Below, one piece after another: positions 17,179 to 50,607 of a DNA stretch of 64,000 nt. The position numbers and the translations under genes are program-made. How positions within the stretch are numbered: position 1 is the first letter of the stretch; every line of letters begins with the position of its first letter. The stretch is from Myxococcota bacterium (lineage in GTDB: Bacteria; Myxococcota_A; Bradymonadia; UBA7976; UBA1532), in NCBI GenBank assembly GCA_963169045.1, contig CAUJDF010000039.1, positions 248,001 through 312,000 on the forward strand. Reading direction: 5' to 3'. The notes beneath the pieces were generated by a model. It made no database searches. It was not told the origin of the DNA and saw nothing but the letters and a program-made list of their open reading frames with translations.

Positions 17179-17255
17179 TGCGGGGTGGAGCAGCCAGGTA
17201 GCTCGTCGGGCTCATGACCCGAAGGTCGAGGGTTCGAATCCCTCCCCCGCTACCA
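17179..17255 (+). tRNA. Initiator tRNA-fMet (CAT anticodon)
   Basis: 77 bases with CCA encoded. The anticodon loop is CTCATGA on a stem with three consecutive G:C pairs (GGG/CCC), and the T-loop is TTCGAAT. Position 1 (T) and position 72 (T) do not pair. The unpaired 1:72 end and the GGG:CCC anticodon stem are the two identity features of bacterial initiator tRNA, used for formylation and P-site entry. Its 3' half borders a decayed integrase, as expected for an integration site. Confidence 0.96.
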
Positions 17256-17605: not shown

Positions 17606-17914
17606 ATGGACGCGACGCTCGAACGACACGCGGCGCAGCTCGGTGCCCTCGGTCATCCCGTGCGCCTTCAGGTGCTGCGCTTCGTCGTGCGCTCCGGCGA
17701 CGGCGGCGCCCCGGCCGGCGAGATCCAGGCGCACGTCGATCTGCCGGCCTCAACGTTGAGCCACCACCTCAGGCGCCTCGTCGGCGCCGGCCTGCTGACC
17801 ACGCGAAGCGAACGAACCTTCCATTACTACGCGGCCGACTACGTCGCCCTGCGCGGCCTCACGGAATACCTCTGGGAGGACTGCTGCCGACAGGGCCGTG
17901 GCAGCTGCTGCTGA
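17606..17914 (+). CDS. arsR: ArsR/SmtB-family metalloregulator
   Basis: 102 residues. The winged helix-turn-helix is clear: LGHPVRLQVLRFVV, then LPASTLSHHLRRLVGAGLL and the wing TRSERTFHYYAAD. The classical metal site in the alpha-3 helix (ELCVC) is absent. Instead the C-terminus carries EDCCRQGRGSCC, four Cys that can form a trigonal As(III)/Sb(III) site as in other ArsR subclasses with relocated sites. It would repress the ars genes until arsenite binds. arsM follows 12 bases later. The upstream 24 bases are A-rich (CCAAAAAAGTAGAAGTAG) and probably contain the operator. Confidence 0.92.
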   Translation: MDATLERHAAQLGALGHPVRLQVLRFVVRSGDGGAPAGEIQAHVDLPASTLSHHLRRLVGAGLLTTRSERTFHYYAADYVALRGLTEYLWEDCCRQGRGSCC

Positions 17915-17926
17915 GGAGAGACGACG

Positions 17927-18772
17927 ATGGACCCGACGAAGGACAAGGGCGAGGCGCTGCGCGAGACCGTTCGCGAGCGGTACGGCCAGGCCGTGAAGGC
18001 CGTCCAGGGCGGCGCGAAGGCGTCGTGCTGCGGCTCGACGGCAGCCGTGGGGATCGGCGGCACCGACCCGATCACGCGCGACCTGTATGACATCGGCGAG
18101 GCGTCACAGGTGCCCGAGGAGGCCCTGCTGGCCTCGTTCGGCTGCGGCAACCCGACAGCGCTCGCCGAGCTGCACCCGGGCGAGGTCGTGCTCGACCTCG
18201 GCTCCGGCGGTGGCATCGACGTGCTGCTCTCGGCGAAGCGCGTCGGCCCCGAGGGCCGCGCCTACGGCCTCGACATGACCGACGAAATGCTCGACCTCGC
18301 GCGGCGCAACGCCGAGAAGGCCGGCGCCACCAACGTCGAGTTCGTGAAGGGCACCATCGAATCCATCCCGCTGGCCGATGCCTCGGTCGACGTGATCATC
18401 TCGAACTGCGTGATCAACTTGTCCGCCGACAAGGACCAGGTGCTGCGCGAGGCGTTTCGCGTCCTCCGACCCGGCGGCCGCTTCGCCGTGTCCGACGTGG
18501 TGATGCGCCGCGAGCTGCCGGAAGAGCTGCGCGCGTCGGTCGACCTGTGGACGGGCTGTGTCGCCGGGGCGCTGCTCGAGTCGGATTACGTGGAGAAGCT
18601 CGAGCGCGCCGGCTTCGCCGACGTCTCGATCGAACCGACGCGGATCTACTCGGCGGACGACGCCGCCGAGATGGCGTCGGGCGCGTGTTGTGGCGGTGAC
18701 CTCTCGGCGACGACCGCTGCGCTCGACGGCGCGGCGATGAGCGCCTTCATTCGGGCGCGGAAACCCGGCTGA
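17927..18772 (+). CDS. arsM: Arsenite S-adenosylmethionine methyltransferase
   Basis: 281 residues after a strong GAGGAGA site. The SAM-binding motif I is VLDLGSGGGIDVLL. The conserved Cys of arsenite methyltransferases are present: a Cys pair at 34-35, Cys73 in SFGCGNP, Cys161 in SNCVINLS and Cys211 in WTGCVAG. These bind As(III) and form the disulfide relay during methylation, which gives methylated, partly volatile arsenicals. An additional Cys pair occurs near the C-terminus (SGACCGG). Cytoplasmic. Second gene of arsR-arsM-acr3. Confidence 0.95.
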   Translation: MDPTKDKGEALRETVRERYGQAVKAVQGGAKASCCGSTAAVGIGGTDPITRDLYDIGEASQVPEEALLASFGCGNPTALAELHPGEVVLDLGSGGGIDVLLSAKRVGPEGRAYGLDMTDEMLDLARRNAEKAGATNVEFVKGTIESIPLADASVDVIISNCVINLSADKDQVLREAFRVLRPGGRFAVSDVVMRRELPEELRASVDLWTGCVAGALLESDYVEKLERAGFADVSIEPTRIYSADDAAEMASGACCGGDLSATTAALDGAAMSAFIRARKPG

Positions 18773-18888
18773 CGCCGGGGCGGCGCTCGCCGCGCTCGTG
18801 CGTTGCTTCGGGCCGGCGGCGAGCACGTGGAAGCGCCGAACGTGTGGGTCCTCTTCGCTCCCTGAACTACTGAACGGGATTCACCCAG

Positions 18889-19980
18889 ATGTCTGCCACG
18901 ACCCGAAGACTGTCGTTCCTCGACCGCTATCTGACGCTCTGGATCTTCGCGGCGATGGGCATGGGGGTGGCGCTCGGCCACACCGTTCCGGGCATCGCTT
19001 CGTTCCTCCATCGCTTCGAGGTGGGGACGACCAACATTCCCCTTGCGATCGGGCTCATCCTGATGATGTACCCGCCCCTCGCGAAGGTCCGATACGAGGA
19101 GCTGCGGGGGGTCTTTCGCGACCGACGCATCCTCGCCCTGTCGCTCGTCCAGAACTGGGTCATCGGTCCGATGCTGATGTTCGGGCTGGCGGTCGTGTTC
19201 CTGCGTGACCAGCCGGAGTACATGACCGGCCTCATCCTCGTCGGCCTGGCGCGCTGCATCGCGATGGTGCTCGTCTGGAACGAGCTCGCCTGCGGGAGCA
19301 GCGAGTACGCCGCCGGGCTCGTCGCCTTCAACAGCATCTTCCAGGTGCTGTTCTTCAGCGTCTTTGCGTGGCTCTTCATCACCGTGCTGCCGCCGGTCTT
19401 CGGGCTCGAGGGGAGCGTCGTCGACGTCAGCATCGGCGAGATCTTCCAAAGCGTGATGATCTACCTCGGCATTCCGTTCGCCGCCGGCTTCGTCTCGCGT
19501 CTCGTCCTGCGTCGCCGGTTCGGCGACGCCTGGTACGCGCAGCGCTTTCTCCCGCGCATCGCGCCGATCACGCTGATCGCGCTCCTCGCCACGATCGTCC
19601 TGATGTTCAGCTTCAAGGGCGAGGTCATCGTCCGCATTCCGCTCGACGTGCTGCGGATCGCCATCCCGCTGGTGATCTACTTTGCGCTGATGTTCCTCGT
19701 GAGCTTCCTCTTGGCCTGGAAGCTCGGTGCGGACTATCCGCGGACCGCGACGCTGTCGTTCACCGCCGCCGGCAACAACTTCGAGCTGGCCATCGCCGTG
19801 GCGATCGCCGTGTTCGGCCTGCAGTCGGGCGTCGCCTTCGCGGCGGTCGTCGGGCCGCTCGTCGAAGTGCCCGCGCTCATCGGGCTCGTCTCGGTCTCGC
19901 TCGCGCTCCGGCGCCGGCTGTTTCCGGCGGAGGTCGCGGCGGGAGGCCCGGCGCCGAGCCGCGAGGGGATGCGGTCATGA
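18889..19980 (+). CDS. acr3: Arsenite efflux permease, ACR3 family
   Basis: 363 residues with about ten membrane helices. The ACR3 signature is clear: [17 protein letters not shown] with the essential Cys123 in helix 4, and later [19 protein letters not shown]. The permease exports arsenite using the proton gradient. The 116-base gap after arsM shows no gene and could carry a second promoter. Its stop overlaps ATGACGCAGTCC at 19977, which opens a 23-codon reading frame that collides with the convergent gene and is likely the stump of a lost ars gene. Confidence 0.95.
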
Positions 19981-40695: not shown

Positions 40696-41349
40696 ATGCA
40701 CGAAGACGCCCAACTCCCGCTCCTCGCGTCCGGACGGCGCCTGACGCGGGCCGACGCCCTCGACCGCCTCGCCACGCTCGTCGGCGTCGACCTGCGGCCG
40801 CTGGCCGACCGCTACGGCGTCACGGTCTGGCGCGACGGCCGGCGCAACAAGGGCTGGGCCGGCATGGTCGTCGAGCGGTACCTCGGCCTCGCCGCCAACG
40901 GGACGCAGGCCCCCGACTTCGGCGACTGGGAGCTGAAGGTCGTGCCCCTCGCGCTCGCCGCCGATGGGCGCCTGCGCCTCAAGGAGACCATGGCGGTCAC
41001 CATGTTCACCGCGGCGGACCTCGAGTCCCGGGAGTTCGAGGAGAGCCACCTGCTGGCCAAGCTCGGGCGCATCGTCGTCGTCGCGCGGGTGTACGAGGGC
41101 CCCGAGGAGGCGCGCTCGGTCGTGCAGGCGGTCGCCGGCTTCGACCTGACCGACGCCGACCGCGCCCAGGTCCGCGCCGACTACGAGGAGGCGCGCTGGA
41201 TGGTGCGGACGCAGGGCGCCTGGGCGCTCGACGGGCGCGTGGGCCGGCTGGTGCAGCCGCGCCCCAAGGGGGCGGGGCATGGCAGCGGCGGTATGGGCTT
41301 CTACGCGAAAAAGGCTCTCGTGACGCGCATGTTGGGGATCGGCGCGTGA
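40696..41349 (+). CDS. MutH/Sau3AI-type DNA endonuclease
   Basis: 217 residues. The family core is visible: NKGWAGMVVERYLGL with Glu60, then APDFGDWELKVV, giving the acidic and basic triad Asp74, Glu79, Lys81 of the MutH/Sau3AI catalytic motif (D-x(n)-ExK). In E. coli MutH nicks the unmethylated strand at hemimethylated GATC. Here no methyltransferase, MutS or MutL gene is in the window, so the methyl signal it reads is unknown. The stop overlaps a GTG of the next reading frame, though that gene probably begins later. Confidence 0.88.
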   Translation: MHEDAQLPLLASGRRLTRADALDRLATLVGVDLRPLADRYGVTVWRDGRRNKGWAGMVVERYLGLAANGTQAPDFGDWELKVVPLALAADGRLRLKETMAVTMFTAADLESREFEESHLLAKLGRIVVVARVYEGPEEARSVVQAVAGFDLTDADRAQVRADYEEARWMVRTQGAWALDGRVGRLVQPRPKGAGHGSGGMGFYAKKALVTRMLGIGA

Positions 41350-41417
41350 ACGCTTTACTCGCCCGGCGCGGGCGGGCCAGACTCGACGCGCGTGGGGTGC
41401 TGGCCGGAGGTGTGTCC

Positions 41418-44400
41418 TTGGTCCGCCGTGTCGCCCCCTTTTGTCTCCTCCTCGCGATGACCGCCTGCGACGACGGCGGCGCCTCGTCCGCCGGCGACGC
41501 CGCCGCGCCCGACGCCGCGCCGGACGCCGCGCCCCCCGACGGCGCCCCGCCGGACGCCGCGCCTCCCGACGCGACGCCCCCCGACGGCGCCCCGCCCGAC
41601 GGCAGGGTGCCCGACGCCGCCCCCCCCGACGCCGGCCCCCCCGCGGATCCCTTGCGGTTCAACGAGCTGATGGCCAGCAACGACGGCGCATGGGTCGACG
41701 AGACGGGCGAGACCGACGACTGGATCGAGCTCTACAACGCCGGGCCCGTGGATCTCTCGCTCGAGGGCTACGCCATCGCCGAGAAGGACGACGAGTGGGT
41801 CCCGCTGCCGGGCTTCCTGCTGGCGCCGGGCGACGTGCTCGTGCTGTGGGCCGACGACACGCCGGCACAGGGGCCGCTGCACCTGCCGTTCAAGCTGTCG
41901 TCGGGCGGCGGGCGGCTGATGCTCCGCGCGCCGGGCGGCGAGCTCGCCGACGCGGTGCGGTACCCGCCGTCGCAGCCCGACGACGCCTTCCAGCGTCTCC
42001 CGGACGGGCAGGGCGACCTCGTGCGCTGCCGCTGGGCGACGCCCGCGCGCCACAACGGCGAGCGGTGCGGCCCGCCGCCGCCGCCGGAGCTCCCCGAGGA
42101 GGTGACGTTCGCGCCGTACGTCTGGCCGGCGCCGACGCCGCCGACGCTGGTGCTGACGGAGCTCGCGCTGCGGCCGTCGGCGTTCGTCGAGGTGCTCAAC
42201 CCGACCGACGCGCCGATCGCGCTCGACGAATACACGGTGCGCCTCGCGGCGACGCGGCCCGGCGTGCCCTGGCCCGGCCGCGAGGCGGGCGCGGCGCTGG
42301 ACTGGCCCGAGGCGCGGTTGGCGCCCGGCGCGCGCCTCGTGCTGCCGCTGACGGCCGAGGACACGGCGGCGCTCGCGACCAGCCCCGACTTCGAGGGCGT
42401 CGTGACGCTGTGGGGTCCCGAGGGGCCCGTCGACCGCGTCGACTTCATGGCCTGGCCCGAGGGCGCGGCGCTGGCGCGCGTCCCCGACGCCACCGGGCAC
42501 CCGCGGTTCTGCGCCGCGACGACGCCGGGGGCGGCGAACGACCCGTGCGATCCGCTGCCGTCGCGGCCCGTCGGCGACCGACTGCGCCACCTCTACACGC
42601 CGGGCGACTTCGGGGCGCTGGCCGAGGGCGAGACGGCGCTCGGCCAGGAGCCGCTGAAGGTCGTCGTCGACATGGCGTCGGGCGACGTCGTGCACCTGCT
42701 GTCGAGCCGCGCCTGGGACCTGCACTACACGTTCATTCGGGAGCGCATCGACGGGCTGCCGCACCTCGACCGCTGCGACCCGGTCCAGAACGACGTGCAC
42801 CTCGCCGGCTGGCGCGAGTTCAGCGACCGCGAGTACCTGCAGGCCGAGGGCCGCCGTTACCTGCTCGGCACGCTCGTGCACCACGCGGGCCCCGGCCTGC
42901 GCACCTACGAGTTCGCGGCGGGCGACCAGATCACGCCCGAGCTCATGCGCCGGTCGTTCTTCACGGCGATGCGGCACGTGCCCGACCCCGAGCGGTGGTT
43001 CCTGCGGCCGCAGGACGCGCGACAGATCGCGAACATGCGCGAGATGGACGGCCAGGCGCCGATGATCGGGCCGAACGCGCCGTTCCGCGGCGTGACCTTT
43101 CAGCCGCTCACCGAGGGCCTCGCCTACGGCGTGCTGACCTTCGTGTCCTCCGAAGAGCTCGCCCGGACGCCGCTCGGGCCGCAGGTGATCGTGGTCACCG
43201 ACCAGGTCCCGAACGACATCGACCTCGTCGGCGGGCTCGTGACCGAGGCGTTCCAGACGCCGCTCGCGCACGTGAACCTGCTCAGCCGCAACCGCGGGAC
43301 GCCCAACATGGCCCTGGCCGACGCGCGCGACGACCCGCGCGTGGCGCCGCTGCTCGGCACGCTGGTGCGGCTCGAGGTGACGGCGGGGGCGTTCACGATC
43401 GCGCCCGCCGAGCCCGCCGAGGCGGAGGCCTTCTGGGAGAGCCGGCGGCCGTCGGGCGAGCCGTTCCGGCCGCGCCTCGACACGAGCGTGCGCGGCGTGG
43501 TGCCGCTCGACACGGCCACGATCGCCGACCTGCCCGCCCTCGGCGGCAAGGCGGCGCAGTTCGCGGAGCTCTACCGCGTCGTCTCGGCGGGCCGGGGCTG
43601 CGAGGGCCCGCTCAACGTGCCGCGGGGGGCGTTCGCGATCCCGGTCGTGCACTCGCTCGAGCACTTCGAGGCGAGCGGCGCGGCGACGATCCTCGAGGCG
43701 CTGCGGGCCGATCCCGAGTTCCGCAGCGATCCGCGCGTCCGCGCCCTCGGCCTCGCGCGGGTGCGCACCGCCATCCGCGTCCACCCCGTGGATCCGGCGC
43801 TGCTCGCGCAGGTGCAGGCCGAGGTGGAGGCGCGCTTCGGCGGGGCGCGCGTGCGCTTCCGCAGCAGCAGCAACACCGAGGACCTGCCCGGCTTCAACGG
43901 CGCCGGCCTGTACACCTCGATCTCCGGCGAGCTCGACGACCCCGAGCGCCCCATCGACGACGCGATCCGCACGGTGTGGGCGAGCCTGTGGCTGCAGCGC
44001 GGCTACGACGAGCGCGACTACCACCACATCGCCCAGGACGGCGTGGCGATGGCGGTGCTGGTCCACCCGGCGGCGCTGTCGGAGAAGGCCAACGGCGTCG
44101 CCATCAGCCGCAACATCCTCGAGCCGATCCGCCGCGACCACTACCTGAACGTCCAGGTCGGCGAGGCGAGCGTCGCCAACCCGGCGCCGGGCGTGACGAC
44201 GGACCAGCTGCTGATCAGCCCGTACCGCGGCAGCAACCCGCAGTACCTCGCGCGCAGCAGCCTGAGCCCCGGGGTGCCGGTGCTCTCGCTCGAGGAGGTG
44301 CGCCACGTGTCGTGCGTGCTCGGCGCCATCCACGCGCACTATCGGCCGCTGCTCGACCCGGACGCCGCGAACCAGTGGTTCGCGATGGACGTGGAGCTCA

Positions 44401-44495
44401 AGCTGATCGGGCCGGAGCGCGCGCTGTCGGTGAAGCAGGCGCGCGCCTACTCGTTCGGCGGGCAACAGCCGCCCGCCGACTGCCGCGAGCTCTGA
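41418..44495 (+). CDS. Secreted lipoprotein with lamin-tail domains and a dikinase-like His/ATP-grasp module
   Basis: About 1025 residues from TTG at 41418, chosen because GGAGG ends seven bases before it and it gives a clean signal VRRVAPFCLLLAMTAC. A repeat linker of DAAPPDA units covers 25-75. A lamin-tail domain (LRFNELMASNDGAWVDETGE) and a second similar domain (LVLTELALRPSAFVEVLNPT) follow. A phosphohistidine-like segment has His618 in TPLAHVNLLSRNRGTPN. A PPDK-type ATP-binding domain then carries LGGKAAQFAEL, VRFRSSSNTEDLPGFNGAG and a late ELKLIG. The order His domain then ATP-grasp is that of glucan water dikinases. An exported member is unusual. Ends at a palindromic repeat. Confidence 0.8.
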   Translation: MVRRVAPFCLLLAMTACDDGGASSAGDAAAPDAAPDAAPPDGAPPDAAPPDATPPDGAPPDGRVPDAAPPDAGPPADPLRFNELMASNDGAWVDETGETDDWIELYNAGPVDLSLEGYAIAEKDDEWVPLPGFLLAPGDVLVLWADDTPAQGPLHLPFKLSSGGGRLMLRAPGGELADAVRYPPSQPDDAFQRLPDGQGDLVRCRWATPARHNGERCGPPPPPELPEEVTFAPYVWPAPTPPTLVLTELALRPSAFVEVLNPTDAPIALDEYTVRLAATRPGVPWPGREAGAALDWPEARLAPGARLVLPLTAEDTAALATSPDFEGVVTLWGPEGPVDRVDFMAWPEGAALARVPDATGHPRFCAATTPGAANDPCDPLPSRPVGDRLRHLYTPGDFGALAEGETALGQEPLKVVVDMASGDVVHLLSSRAWDLHYTFIRERIDGLPHLDRCDPVQNDVHLAGWREFSDREYLQAEGRRYLLGTLVHHAGPGLRTYEFAAGDQITPELMRRSFFTAMRHVPDPERWFLRPQDARQIANMREMDGQAPMIGPNAPFRGVTFQPLTEGLAYGVLTFVSSEELARTPLGPQVIVVTDQVPNDIDLVGGLVTEAFQTPLAHVNLLSRNRGTPNMALADARDDPRVAPLLGTLVRLEVTAGAFTIAPAEPAEAEAFWESRRPSGEPFRPRLDTSVRGVVPLDTATIADLPALGGKAAQFAELYRVVSAGRGCEGPLNVPRGAFAIPVVHSLEHFEASGAATILEALRADPEFRSDPRVRALGLARVRTAIRVHPVDPALLAQVQAEVEARFGGARVRFRSSSNTEDLPGFNGAGLYTSISGELDDPERPIDDAIRTVWASLWLQRGYDERDYHHIAQDGVAMAVLVHPAALSEKANGVAISRNILEPIRRDHYLNVQVGEASVANPAPGVTTDQLLISPYRGSNPQYLARSSLSPGVPVLSLEEVRHVSCVLGAIHAHYRPLLDPDAANQWFAMDVELKLIGPERALSVKQARAYSFGGQQPPADCREL

Positions 44496-44806: not shown

Positions 44807-47800
44807 TCAGCGCGGCCGCCAGCCGCCGCCGCCGGGGGTCTCCACGACGAGCACGTCCCCGGGCTCGACGGGCACCGTCACCTTGCCCGGCAGCGCCACG
44901 CGGGTCCCGTCGGCGCGGATCAGCGTGTCGCGGCCGCGCTCGCCGTCCGGCGCGCCGTTCCGCCCCCACGGCGCGAAGCGGCGGCGTTCGCCCAGCAGGT
45001 TGACCTCCGCCGGCGCGAGGAAGCGGTAGGCGCGCACGACGCCCTCGCCGCCGGTGCCGGGCGTCTCCGGGCGCACCGCGTACCGCTCGATCCGCACCGG
45101 AAAGGCGCGCTCGAGGGCCTCCACCGGCGTGTTGAGCGTGTTGGTCATGTGCGTGTGGATCGCGCTCGCCCCGGGACCCCGCGGCGAGCCGCCGGCGCCG
45201 CCGCCCAACGTCTCGTAGTGCACGAAGGCGCGCCCCGCGGCGTCGACCCCGCCGAAGAGCACGTTGTTCATCGAGCCGCACGAGGCCGCCGGCACGCGGT
45301 CGGGCGCCGCCTGCGCCAGCGCGCCGAAGATCGCGTCGACGAGGCGCTGCGACGTCTCGACGTTCCCCGCCGAGACCGCCGCCGGCGGCAGCGCGTCGAC
45401 GACCGAGCCCGGGCGCGTGCGGACCGCGATCGCGCGCATCAGCCCGTCGTTCGCCGGGATGGCCTCGCCGGCGAGGCAGCGGAACGCGTAGAAGGCCGCC
45501 GACACGGCGATGGCGCGCACGGCGTTCAAGGGGCCGGCGACCTGGTCCGGCGCCCCGGTGAAGTCCACCTCGGCCGCGTCGCCGTCGACGCGCACGACGA
45601 CCGGGATCTCGATGGGCGCGTCGCCGGCGCCGTCGTCGTCGAGGCGGTCGACGAAGCGGTGCTCGCCGTCGGGCAGCGCCGCGATCACCGCGCGCATCCG
45701 GCGCTCGGCGTAGTCGAGCAGCGCGTCGTTCAGCCCCGCGACGCGCCCGTGGCCGACCTCGTCGACGAGCGCGCGCAGGCGCAGCGCGCCGACGTGGTTC
45801 GCCGCCTCCTGGGCGCGCAGGTCGCCGCGCCGCTCCGCCGGCGTGCGCGACGCGCTCGCGAACCGCTCGCGCAGCGCGTCGTCGAGCGGCGTCGGCGGCA
45901 GGCGGATGCCCTCGTCGTCGACCGTGAGCGCGCGCACGTGCCCGTCGGCGTCGCGCGGGGAGGGCAGGCTGCCCGGCGACACGCCGCCGACGTCGGCGTG
46001 GTGCGCGCGGTTCGCCACGTAGAACGCGGGGCGCGCCGCGTCGTCGAGGAACACCGGCGTCACGAGCGTCACGTCCGGCAGGTGCGTCCCGCCCGCGAAC
46101 GGATCGTTGAGCACCACCTGCGTGCCCGGCGTCATCGGCACCGCGTCGATGGCCGCGCGCACGCTCAGGGGCGTCGAGCCGAGGTGCACCGGGATGTGCG
46201 CCGCGTGGACGAGCATGCGGCCGTCCGCGTCGAACACGGCGCACGAGAAGTCGCGCCGCTCCTTGATGTTGGCGGAGAACGCCGCCCCCATCAGGTTCGC
46301 GCCCATCTCCTCGGCGATGGCCCCGAGGCGCTGGCGGTGGATCTCGAGCGCCAGCGGGAGGAGGGACGGCGCTTCGTCGGCGCGCGCCCCGCCCGTACGC
46401 TCGCAGAGCAGGTCGCCGCTCGCGAGCGCCGTCGCGCGCCAGCCCGGCGGGAGCCACAGGGTCGCGCTGTAGGCGGACACCGACCGCGGCCCCGCGAGCG
46501 CCCCGCCCGCCGGACCGGGCCCGGCTTCGTCGATCGCGGCCTCCGCCGTGCTGACCGTCGCCCGCACCGCGACGAGCTCGATCGGCGCGTCGAGCCGGTA
46601 GCCGTAGCGCGCCGCGTGGGCCGCGTCGAAGGCGGCGCGCAGCGACGGGCCCTCGAGCGGCACCGCCAGCGTGAACGTCTGGCCGGCGTAGCGGCAGTCG
46701 GCGAGCACGCTCGCCGTGGCGGGGGCGGGGCCGGTCTCGTCGCGCAGGATCGCCGCGGCCTCGGCCAGCACCTCGTCGCGCAGCTGCGCCAGCGCGTCGG
46801 CCGTCCAGCGCGCCTCGCCCAGGAAGACGGACCGCGTGGCGGTGGCGAGGGAGGGCGCGTCGAGGATGCCCTCCGCCGAGAGCAGCCCCGGCTCCCGCGG
46901 GAAGAGCACGTCGCGGCACCCGAGCGCGTCGGCCAGCGCGCACGCGTGCAGGCCCCCGGCGCCGCCGAACGCGACGAGCGTGAGGCCGCGCGGATCGATG
47001 CCGCGCTCCATCGAGACGCGCTTGCAGGCGCGCGCCATCGTCGCCTCGGCGATCGCCAGGATGGCGCGCGCGGTGTCCTCGAGCGGCGTCCCGAGCCGCG
47101 CCGCGAGATCGCCGACCGCGCGGCGGGCCGCCTCCGCGTCGACGGGCATCGCGCCGCCGAGCAGCGCGGGCAGGCGTCCGAGCACGACGTGGGCGTCGGT
47201 GACGGTGGGCTCGACGCCGCCGCGCCCGTAACACGCCGGCCCGGGCACGGCGCCCGCCGACCGCGGTCCCACGCGCAGCGCCCCGCCGGCGTCGACGAAG
47301 GCGACGGACCCGCCGCCGGCGCCCACCGTCTCGATCGGCAGCAACGGCACGCGCAGCGGGTGCTCGCCGATGGCGCCCTCGTCCTCCGGGCGCAGCGCGC
47401 CCTGCACGACGGCCACGTCGGTGGACGTCCCGCCCATGTCGAACGCCAGGAGCGCGGTGCGGCCGCAGCGCCGACCCGCCGCCCATGCGCCGCGCACGCC
47501 ACCCGCGGGCCCGGAGAGCACGGTGTGGACCGGCTCGCGCGCCGCCCGCGCCGCCCCCATCCGCCCGCCCGCCGACGCCATCACCGACAGGCGGCCCGGA
47601 CGCAGCGCGTCGGCGAGGCGCGCCACGTAGCGCGACATCACCGGCGCCACGTGCGCGTTCACGACCACCGTCGACGTGCGCTCGAGCTCGCGGAAGACCG
47701 GCGCGAGCGCGTGCCCCGTCGACACCGGCACGCCGGGGAACGCCGCCCGCAGCGCCGCGGCCACGGCCGCCTCGTGCCGGTCGTCGGCGTAGGCGTGCAA

Positions 47801-48268
47801 CAGGCAGACGGCGAAGGCCTCCGCTCTCCGCAACGTCTCGGAATTCCTGGCGATCCATGCGTCGAGCGGCTCGAGCGGTTCGACCTCCTCACCGCCGGGC
47901 CCGAGGCGGCCGCGCACGCCGACACAATCCTCGGGCGGCACGAGCGGCGGCGGGACCTCGGGGTGCAGCGCGTAGAGGTCCGGGCGCGCCTGGCGCCGCA
48001 GCCGCAGGACGTCCTCGAAGCCGGCGGTCGCGACGAGCACCACCCGCGCGCCGCGGCGCTCCAGCAGCGCGTTCGTGGCCACCGTCGTGCCGTGCCGCAC
48101 CTCGTCGGGCGCCGCGCCGAGGGCGGCGATCGCGTCGAGCACGGCGCGTCCGGGGTCGTCGGGCGTGGAGGGGACCTTGACCTGCGCGGTGCGGCCGCCG
48201 GGCAGGCGGGCGACGAGGTCGGTGAACGTGCCGCCGGTGTCGACCCCGACGATCACGGGCGGGGTCAC
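44807..48268 (-). CDS. Fused HyuA-HyuB hydantoinase / 5-oxoprolinase
   Basis: 1153 residues from GTG at 48268. The N-terminal HyuA half begins IVGVDTGGTFTDLV, an actin-like ATP-binding loop, with HGTTVATNALLERRGA, ELERTSTVVVNAHVAPV, LLAFDMGGTSTDVAVV and TLVAFGGAGGLHACALADAL. The HyuB half starts near residue 640 (IHRQRLGAIAEEMGANLMGA, ANIKERRDFSCAVFD) and ends VVETPGGGGWRPR. Fused enzymes of this length open 5-oxoproline or hydantoins with ATP. Its GTGA start overlaps the stop of the upstream TPR gene, so the three minus-strand genes form one unit. Substrate is uncertain. Confidence 0.94.
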   Translation of the reverse strand: MTPPVIVGVDTGGTFTDLVARLPGGRTAQVKVPSTPDDPGRAVLDAIAALGAAPDEVRHGTTVATNALLERRGARVVLVATAGFEDVLRLRRQARPDLYALHPEVPPPLVPPEDCVGVRGRLGPGGEEVEPLEPLDAWIARNSETLRRAEAFAVCLLHAYADDRHEAAVAAALRAAFPGVPVSTGHALAPVFRELERTSTVVVNAHVAPVMSRYVARLADALRPGRLSVMASAGGRMGAARAAREPVHTVLSGPAGGVRGAWAAGRRCGRTALLAFDMGGTSTDVAVVQGALRPEDEGAIGEHPLRVPLLPIETVGAGGGSVAFVDAGGALRVGPRSAGAVPGPACYGRGGVEPTVTDAHVVLGRLPALLGGAMPVDAEAARRAVGDLAARLGTPLEDTARAILAIAEATMARACKRVSMERGIDPRGLTLVAFGGAGGLHACALADALGCRDVLFPREPGLLSAEGILDAPSLATATRSVFLGEARWTADALAQLRDEVLAEAAAILRDETGPAPATASVLADCRYAGQTFTLAVPLEGPSLRAAFDAAHAARYGYRLDAPIELVAVRATVSTAEAAIDEAGPGPAGGALAGPRSVSAYSATLWLPPGWRATALASGDLLCERTGGARADEAPSLLPLALEIHRQRLGAIAEEMGANLMGAAFSANIKERRDFSCAVFDADGRMLVHAAHIPVHLGSTPLSVRAAIDAVPMTPGTQVVLNDPFAGGTHLPDVTLVTPVFLDDAARPAFYVANRAHHADVGGVSPGSLPSPRDADGHVRALTVDDEGIRLPPTPLDDALRERFASASRTPAERRGDLRAQEAANHVGALRLRALVDEVGHGRVAGLNDALLDYAERRMRAVIAALPDGEHRFVDRLDDDGAGDAPIEIPVVVRVDGDAAEVDFTGAPDQVAGPLNAVRAIAVSAAFYAFRCLAGEAIPANDGLMRAIAVRTRPGSVVDALPPAAVSAGNVETSQRLVDAIFGALAQAAPDRVPAASCGSMNNVLFGGVDAAGRAFVHYETLGGGAGGSPRGPGASAIHTHMTNTLNTPVEALERAFPVRIERYAVRPETPGTGGEGVVRAYRFLAPAEVNLLGERRRFAPWGRNGAPDGERGRDTLIRADGTRVALPGKVTVPVEPGDVLVVETPGGGGWRPR

Positions 48269-49440
48269 TTCTTGCGCGGGGCGGCGGCCTGGGCGTCCTC
48301 GAGGCGCTTGCGCACCTCCTCGAGCTTGCCGCGGGCCGTCATGAGCGTCTGCTCCTGGTTCGGGTCCTTCTCGAGGGCGCGGGCCGCGCGCTCCATCGCC
48401 ACCTGCAACGCCCCGGCGGCCAGCTTCAGGTCGCCGTGCCTCTCGGCGATCAGCCCGATGCGCAGGTGCGGCTCGGACAGCTCGTCGTCGATCTGCGCCA
48501 GCTCGCCGAACACCTGGAGCGCCGCCTCGGTCTGGTCGCGCCGCTCGTACAGGCGGCCGAGGCGGATGTAGGCCTCGCGATCGCCGCTCTGCTCCCACGC
48601 GCGCTTCAGATGGCGCTCGGCGAGCATGTCGCGACCGAGGGCAGCGTACGCGCCGCCCAGCGGGCCGTGCACCGCGGGCACGTCGCCCTGACGCGAGAGC
48701 GCCCTCTCGAACGCCTTGACCGCCTCCTGCTGCTTGCCCTGCTCGGCGAGCGCCTTGCCCAGCGTCACGAACAGCGTCGGCTCTTCGAGCTTCTTGCTCG
48801 CGCGCTCGAGGAGCTTCGTCGCCTCCTCCCAGTTCTTCTGCTGGAAGCGCGCCTGTCCGAGCGCGAGCTGGATGGTCGCGTTCTCGGCGTCGAGGCCGAG
48901 CGCTTTGTCGAGCGCGTCGACCGCCGGCGCCAGCTCGCCGGCGCGCAGGAAGGCGACGCCGAGGTTGTGGTGGGCCGGCGCGAACTTCGGATCGGCCTCG
49001 AGCGCGCGCTGGAACTGGCGACGCGCCCCGGGATCGTCGCCGCGGGCCAGCAGCAGCTTCCCGTAGGCGACCAGCAGCGGCGCCGACGGCTGCGCGCGGG
49101 CGACGAGCGCGGCGCCGAGCGCCTCCTGCAGCCGCGCGCCCTCGGCGACGTCGAGCGTGCCGCTGAACTTCAGGACCTGCTGGACGCGCGCGTCGACCAG
49201 GGCGTCGCGCCACTCGGCGCGTCGGGGATCGGCGTCGAGGGCGGCGGCGAAGGCGTGGGCCGCGAGCTCGGGATCGCCGGCGTCCAGCGCGGCGCGGCCG
49301 ACGGCGGCGTGCTCGGCGCCGAGGGTCGCGGCCTCGCGGCGCGCCCCGAAGGCCGCCCATTCGTTGGCCGCCCACGGCACGGCGCCGGCGCCGAGGAGCA
49401 GCAGGACCAGGGCGAGCAACCAACGGAGAGGATCGCGCAT
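48265..49440 (-). CDS. Membrane-anchored TPR protein (paralogue 1)
   Basis: 391 residues. A single N-terminal helix (PLRWLLALVLLLLGAGAVPW) anchors it, then come TPR units for the rest of the chain (for example ARRQFQRALEADPKFAPAHH and QQEAVKAFERALSRQGDVPA). It ends in a Lys/Arg tail. It shares order, anchor and repeat layout with the next gene upstream (49465-50607), from which it probably arose by duplication. Coupled to the hydantoinase gene. No catalytic residues seen. Confidence 0.86.
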   Translation of the reverse strand: MRDPLRWLLALVLLLLGAGAVPWAANEWAAFGARREAATLGAEHAAVGRAALDAGDPELAAHAFAAALDADPRRAEWRDALVDARVQQVLKFSGTLDVAEGARLQEALGAALVARAQPSAPLLVAYGKLLLARGDDPGARRQFQRALEADPKFAPAHHNLGVAFLRAGELAPAVDALDKALGLDAENATIQLALGQARFQQKNWEEATKLLERASKKLEEPTLFVTLGKALAEQGKQQEAVKAFERALSRQGDVPAVHGPLGGAYAALGRDMLAERHLKRAWEQSGDREAYIRLGRLYERRDQTEAALQVFGELAQIDDELSEPHLRIGLIAERHGDLKLAAGALQVAMERAARALEKDPNQEQTLMTARGKLEEVRKRLEDAQAAAPRKK

Positions 49441-49464
49441 GTCGGGCTCCCGGGGCGTGTGCGT

Positions 49465-50607
49465 TCAGCGCTTGGGCGCGGGGGCGGCCGACAGGGCCGC
49501 GAGGCGACCCTGCGCCTCCTCGAGGGCCGCGGCCTGCTTCTCGTCGGCCTGGGCCAACCGGATGGCCGCCTCGAGCGCGCCGCGGGCCGCGTCGGCCTGC
49601 CCGAGGGCGAGGGCGCTGCGGGCGATGCCGAGCGGCGCGCGGGCGTCCCTCGGCAGGAGGCGGCGCAGCTCGCCCCAGGCGCCGACGGACTCCTGGTGGC
49701 GGCCGAGGACCTGCAGGAGCTCGGCGCGGCGGGCGAGCGCGTCGACGTCGCCCGTCAGGCGCCAGGCGGCCTCGAGGGCGCCGAGGGCGAGGTCGTTCTG
49801 GCCCTGACGCAGCCAGGCCTCGGCGAGCGGCGCGTGGGCGGCGGCGAGGTCCGGCTGTAGCGCGAGCGCCCGCTCGAGCGACGTCGCGGCGTCGGCCCAC
49901 TTCTTCTGCCGCAGCAGCGCGCGTCCGAGCGCGAGCCGCACGGGCGCGCGGTCGAGGTGCTCGACGGCGGCGCCCAGCAGCTTCTCGGCCTCTTCGTACT
50001 TCTCCTGGGAGAGCCGCGTCTGTCCCAGCGCGAAGCGGGCCTCGTGGAGCGTCGCATCGATGGCGAGCGCCTTCTCGAGCGCGGCCGCGGCGCCGTCATA
50101 CTGCTTCGCCTTGAGCAGCAGGTCGCCGAGGTGCATGTGGGCGACCGCCAGGCCCGGCTCCGCGTCGATGGCGCGCTCGAACGCCCTGCGGGCCTCGTCG
50201 TCGCGGCCGCGCACCTGCAGCGCCTTGCCGAGCGCGATCTGCAGGCGGGCCGGCGCGGCGGGGGCGCTCGCCAGCGCCGTCGCCAGCTCGGACTGCAGCC
50301 GCAGCGCGTTCGCCGAGGTCACCGCGCTCGGGTCGCGCACCACCTGCTCCGCGTGGAGCTCGACGAGCCGCCGCCGCAGCCCCTCGTCGGCCGGGTCGGC
50401 CTCGATCGCGTCGGCCTGCGCCTGGCTGGCGAGCGCCGGATCGCCGGCGGCGAGCGCGGCCTCGGCCAGCGCGGCGTGGGCCGCGGCGCGCTCCGCGGCG
50501 GCGCGCCGGCGGCCGAGCGCGTCGACCTGGTTCAGCAGCAACGGGACGGCGGCCGCGGCGACGACCGCCAGCGCGCCGGTCTGGATCCAGCGGTGGGCTT
50601 GGCTCAT
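49465..50607 (-). CDS. Membrane-anchored TPR protein (paralogue 2)
   Basis: 380 residues. An N-terminal helix (ALAVVAAAAVPLLLNQ) precedes a coiled-coil-like Ala/Arg segment (RRRAAAERAAAHAALAEAAL) and about eight TPRs (RRAFERAIDAEPGLAVAHMH, YDGAAAALEKALAIDATLHE, ATSLERALALQPDLAAAHAP). Same plan as 48265-49440, 24 bases downstream. First gene of the TPR-TPR-hydantoinase unit, divergent from the giant secreted protein at 50760. The 152-base gap probably holds both promoters. Confidence 0.86.
   Translation of the reverse strand: MSQAHRWIQTGALAVVAAAAVPLLLNQVDALGRRRAAAERAAAHAALAEAALAAGDPALASQAQADAIEADPADEGLRRRLVELHAEQVVRDPSAVTSANALRLQSELATALASAPAAPARLQIALGKALQVRGRDDEARRAFERAIDAEPGLAVAHMHLGDLLLKAKQYDGAAAALEKALAIDATLHEARFALGQTRLSQEKYEEAEKLLGAAVEHLDRAPVRLALGRALLRQKKWADAATSLERALALQPDLAAAHAPLAEAWLRQGQNDLALGALEAAWRLTGDVDALARRAELLQVLGRHQESVGAWGELRRLLPRDARAPLGIARSALALGQADAARGALEAAIRLAQADEKQAAALEEAQGRLAALSAAPAPKR

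Follow-up and report, generated by a model that had tools for sequence, protein, structure and literature searches.

A predicted lipid-anchored, dikinase-type phosphotransferase with lamin-tail domains in a Myxococcota bacterium

Several described phosphotransferases pair a PPDK-type ATP-grasp domain with a conserved histidine. In the plant dikinases GWD and PWD, the ATP-grasp is coupled to a phosphohistidine domain bearing a conserved His, and GWD, a plastid enzyme, places this domain N-terminal to the ATP-grasp. PEP synthase and PPDK combine an ATP-grasp with a swivel His in the reverse order. In rifampin phosphotransferase (RPH-Lm, 5hv1), which works by a dikinase mechanism through a swivel His, an ATP-grasp is followed by a RIF-binding domain and a C-terminal His, and Lys22 and Arg117 are required for resistance (PMC4844700). 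CotH kinases form another class of exported kinase; in Gram-positive bacteria, CotH, polyphosphate polymerase and DUF4956 make up an accessory set beside Pel genes (PMC7112168). For exported PEP/pyruvate-binding lipoproteins, we found no paper in the open-access literature.

Here we describe a predicted lipoprotein with such an ATP-grasp, encoded in a 64,000-nucleotide stretch of Myxococcota DNA (the window) on contig C39 of a 9.0-Mb genome. An earlier note, made from the sequence, had proposed an open reading frame whose frame and coordinates are borne out by the TTG start at 41418, the GGAGG 7 nt 5' of it and a G+C content of 0.77/0.52/0.97 at codon positions 1/2/3, a pattern typical of coding sequence. 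An alternative GTG start at 41346 is possible; it gives a longer protein, overlaps the upstream stop and yields a poorer signal peptide. The flanking genes, by reading a MutH-like gene and a hydantoinase-like fusion, are common only to close genomes, and an operon partner was rejected for this reason. Other features of the window, the first two by reading only, are a hydantoinase/oxoprolinase-like fused gene with two tandem TPR-type paralogues (44807-50607, minus strand), consecutive genes for an ArsR-like regulator, an ArsM-like methyltransferase and a transporter-like protein that probably form an arsenic operon (17606-19980), and a tRNA-Met (17179-17255).

Pfam detects two LTD stretches (E 7e-15) and PPDK_N (E 2e-12) above cut-off, and an AlphaFold2 model computed from a 38-row alignment has a mean pLDDT of 90.1 and a pTM of 0.80. 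When model domains were compared with PDB structures by Foldseek and VIA-align 2, the ATP-grasp matched rifampin phosphotransferase 5hv1 best (Z 30.4, rmsd 2.1 over 293 residues), followed by PEP synthase 2ols (Z 28.8) and PPDK 1dik (Z 21.9). The swivel at residues 560-668 has no Pfam match in the protein itself; its fold matches RPH 5fbu (Z 11.0) and the pyruvate kinase C-terminal domain 3t05 (Z 10.5). Pfam and the modelled folds together confirm the lamin tails, the His-bearing swivel-like segment and the PPDK/GWD-type ATP-grasp that had been read from the sequence. Counted from the TTG, the His falls at position 618, as first numbered, and its domain precedes the ATP-grasp, in keeping with the glucan-dikinase-like order proposed at the outset. 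That first description overlooked the domain at residues 386-560, which is strongly conserved and lies after the LTDs and before the swivel.

Table 1. Coordinates of the gene, its predicted domains and related loci (window positions unless a locus is named)
Feature	Position	Strand	Basis or remark
Whole gene	41418..44495	+	1025 aa + stop; ORF reading, codon-position G+C
Shine-Dalgarno-like GGAGG	41406..41410	+	Sequence; 7 nt upstream of TTG start
Signal peptide and lipobox, LVRRVAPFCLLLAMTA then C17	41418..41468	+	Reading and pattern match
Ala/Pro/Asp-rich linker, residues 18-76	41469..41645	+	Sequence
Lamin-tail domain 1, residues 78-182	41649..41963	+	Pfam PF00932; lamin 1ifr Z 9.4; DUF4876 4q1z Z 9.7
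Second beta-sandwich/LTD, about residues 245-365	42150..42512	+	Second Pfam LTD stretch; beta-rich in model
Conserved N-terminal core domain, residues 386-560	42573..43097	+	Conservation; model pLDDT 94
Swivel phosphohistidine-type domain, residues 560-668	43095..43421	+	Model, fold match
His618, predicted phosphoryl carrier	43269..43271	+	Alignment conservation
PPDK/PEPS/RPH-type ATP-grasp, residues 690-1025	43485..44492	+	Pfam PF01326; 5hv1 match; conservation
LipoI/LipoII pair beside family gene	L095:3134-5721		Locus order VTC, DUF4956, LipoI, LipoII, family gene, consecutive
LipoI/LipoII pair; locus with the same set, other genes separating VTC from DUF4956	L094:4738-6621		
Sorangium LipoI/LipoII region	L053:3039-5274		Order LipoI, LipoII, family gene, DUF4956, HlyD, Pfam-less ORF, CotH

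By architecture, the protein is not RPH, PEPS or PPDK. Although RPH supplies the best ATP-grasp match, the window protein has no RIF-binding domain, carries an export signal, places its His domain before the ATP-grasp and scores 28.6 bits against NCBIfam RIF_Ptrans_rph, for which the cut-off is 999. It shares the ATP-grasp, the swivel His and, by motif, the same key residues with PEP synthase and PPDK but has the reversed domain order and ends at the ATP-grasp, and a Pfam search found no C-terminal PEP/pyruvate-binding barrel; the name 'PEP/pyruvate-binding' given to homologues is presumably due to the ATP-grasp alone. With GWD and PWD it has in common the PPDK-type ATP-grasp, both as a Pfam match above cut-off (PF01326) and as a fold match, and the N-terminally placed phosphohistidine domain with its conserved His. 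The swivel similarity to GWD is weak: PF22973 (GWD1_pHisD) matches three relatives at E 0.006-0.11 (12.6-16.7 bits against a cut-off of 27) and does not match the window protein, and with scores below the cut-off it was rejected as proof of GWD membership. Neither CBM45 nor CBM20, the starch-binding modules, was found in a Pfam search at E up to 1. Whereas GWD is a plastid enzyme, the window protein is a predicted lipoprotein with unrelated N-terminal domains, and the best reading is of a protein that would be GWD-like in its working mode, yet no member of GWD. Its build of lipoprotein plus LTDs recurs in the CotH kinases of the same genome, in which 8 of 10 CotH frames carry LTDs; it thus resembles a CotH lipoprotein fitted with a different kinase module, and PF08757 (the CotH domain) gave no match to it in the Pfam search.

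Export is supported by the window protein's own N-terminus, which has the n-region, hydrophobic core and lipobox Cys of a bacterial lipoprotein (A-M-T-A-C, with the Cys at position 17, by reading and pattern match), as had been claimed for it before. A lipobox also opens most homologues with a complete N-terminus, though these N-termini are otherwise unrelated. An automatic count found lipoboxes in 14 of 28 family genes, compared with 34 of 207 neighbouring genes (P 2e-4). The figure for the family is too low, because start calls often lay too far upstream and the rules rejected some good lipoboxes, such as Sorangium ...LPPAC. We predict that the window protein is a lipid-anchored envelope protein.

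The 639-aa core finds a match at 1e-10 or better, in some cases partial, in 131 of 284 sampled Myxococcota genomes, and the named records bearing homologues are Myxococcota, for example Sorangium. LTDs are mainly confined to one clade, most other members being without them. Two homologues of 668-670 aa on Streptomyces plasmids start without an obvious signal peptide and retain the full set of donor-site residues; each is flanked by an ATP-grasp ligase on one side and an MFS transporter on the other (L105:7529-12209 and L106:7523-12350), in a trio that looks like a small biosynthetic cassette. These short members indicate that the three domains of the core form a protein in their own right, and most of the Myxococcota proteins are predicted to be exported. 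The earlier note had missed how broad the family is, that the LTDs are an optional add-on, and the CotH/VTC/DUF4956 link taken up below.

In the alignment of 38 members, His618, Lys711, Arg815, Glu821/Asp822, Asp991/Glu993, Gln1007 and Arg1009 are kept in at least 95% of the non-degenerate sequences, and a wider check that added deep branches and the two Streptomyces proteins found the donor-site residues and His618 retained there as well. Loss of the His and ATP-binding residues among homologues, or a disproof of export, had been named as what would refute the first reading; neither applies, since these residues are kept in essentially all homologues and a lipobox opens most of the complete ones. 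The degenerate members are L002, a sister paralogue in the window genome itself (contig C70, G000:C70:164647-167583), and L046, from another genus. Both carry H618E, K711H, R815W and Q1007R, and Gly or Ser replaces Glu993. Their mutual identity is 68% over 954 columns, compared with 63% over the core for the window protein and the equivalent protein from the genus of L046, which argues that the dead-looking copies are maintained; as they also group with the LTD clade at a support of 100, the loss of the active site is derived. That the same five positions are lost together implies that His618, Lys711, Arg815, Glu993 and Gln1007 behave as one functional, catalytic unit. From their sequences, L002 and L046 look like a maintained pseudoenzyme, and with presumably active and dead-looking paralogues paired in one genome, the system offers a built-in control. 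Two contig-end fragments of the same genome (C62:3-1271 and C50:5-742) may be halves of one further family gene.

The domain at 386-560 has seven invariant residues in the alignment (Asp418, His436, Tyr473, Arg479, Arg480, Glu498 and Asp503), all retained in L002 and L046, so the job of this domain seems separable from phosphotransfer. Modelled alone, it reached a pLDDT of 94, and in a fold search no PDB structure matched it clearly (highest VIA Z 3.6), which by itself does not prove a new fold. EndoMS and the Can2/Card1 nucleases matched weakly, at Z 2-3, and sequence matches to pertussis toxin S1, with E values of 0.14 or more, were dismissed as chance. Acceptor binding is the simplest proposal for its role.

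Part of the family has DUF4956, VTC and CotH genes close by. In 3 of 18 genomes, DUF4956 is found no more than 3 kb from a family gene, against an expectation of 0.03 (P 6e-6, or 6e-4 if the two loci that come from one taxonomic family are taken as a single case), and CotH within 7 kb was observed 3 times where 0.29 were expected; the P values are optimistic, since uniform placement was assumed and the genomes are related. In other clades, the family gene often stands beside LipoI, a conserved lipoprotein with no Pfam match, and sometimes beside the DUF1554-like LipoII (Table 1). VTC genes, of a polyphosphate polymerase family, occur in two related loci of one taxonomic family only. That some members neighbour another exported kinase class suggests phosphorylation outside the cytoplasm. 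The CotH/VTC/DUF4956 association comes from other subfamilies, the neighbours in the LTD clade being conserved only among close genomes, and most family loci have no DUF4956 or CotH nearby, which weakens this line of argument; among the flanking genes checked, none next to the window gene itself is of the DUF4956, VTC or CotH type.

We regard the window protein as probably, though by no means securely, an extracytoplasmic, lipid-anchored ATP:acceptor phosphotransferase of the dikinase type. This reading draws on the domains and their order, the residues that are conserved in the family and lost together in the paralogue clade, the lipobox and the gene associations; from these we infer catalysis, ATP as donor, the transfer route and the roles of the 386-560 domain and the LTDs. 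In the proposed mechanism, the ATP-grasp would bind Mg-ATP through Lys711, Arg815, Asp991/Glu993 and Gln1007/Arg1009. The beta-phosphate would pass to His618 on the swivel, giving phospho-His, AMP and Pi, with the gamma-phosphate transferred to water by the precedents of RPH and GWD. The swivel would then move and carry its phosphate to an acceptor held on the 386-560 domain by Asp418, His436, Tyr473, Arg479-480, Glu498 and Asp503, while the two LTDs may serve as an optional module that anchors the enzyme to material of the envelope or matrix. The acceptor is most likely a glycan or protein of the envelope or matrix, which would give the enzyme a job akin to that of CotH kinases; the surface polysaccharide suggested in the earlier note may be such an acceptor. 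A small molecule comes next.

The small-molecule acceptor leads to a different account, in which the protein is an RPH-like but extracytoplasmic enzyme that modifies an antibiotic, a peptide or a signal molecule. Its nearest solved ATP-grasp is indeed that of rifampin phosphotransferase, and the signal-less Streptomyces homologues, set between ATP-grasp ligase and MFS transporter, indicate such an acceptor for the core and count against an envelope target. We nevertheless think this account unlikely for the window protein, which has neither the RIF-binding domain nor the domain order of RPH, and LTDs and CotH/VTC/DUF4956 neighbours suit envelope polymers better.

The scarcity of ATP outside the cytoplasm weakens any dikinase reading; we can only guess that lysed prey or neighbours supply it. 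The same scarcity favours a binding or scaffold protein that reuses the dikinase fold to hold nucleotide or polymer, with no phosphotransfer, as do the maintained but catalytically dead-looking L002 and L046. The earlier suggestion of a non-catalytic binding fold does fit these two paralogues. For the window copy we judge it quite improbable, because the His and all donor-site residues are kept there and in nearly all homologues, and the dead clade shows that these residues are free to go once catalysis is unneeded. Polyphosphate, pyrophosphate or some other phosphorylated metabolite to be had in the envelope might instead replace ATP as donor, an idea to which the VTC genes of the two related loci lend some colour; with VTC confined to one taxonomic family here, and with conserved counterparts, by motif (GGK; RSS), of RPH Lys22 and Arg117, which position the triphosphate, we hold it to be highly improbable.

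As no GWD structure has been solved (PMC12892837), a bacterial protein of the same domain order could be a structural stand-in. If the predicted lipid-anchored dikinase is active, it would be at work outside the cytoplasm, raising the questions of where its ATP comes from and what it phosphorylates, and an unnamed family present in nearly half the Myxococcota genomes sampled would be tied to the poorly understood CotH/VTC/DUF4956 sets. Tentatively, and as a broader possibility that we would not yet favour, the exported three-domain His-relay dikinases may stand next to CotH as a second class of phosphotransferase working outside the cytoplasm. Their acceptor domain would then have a new fold, they would phosphorylate envelope or matrix polymers across the Myxococcota, and in some genomes a maintained pseudoenzyme would accompany them.
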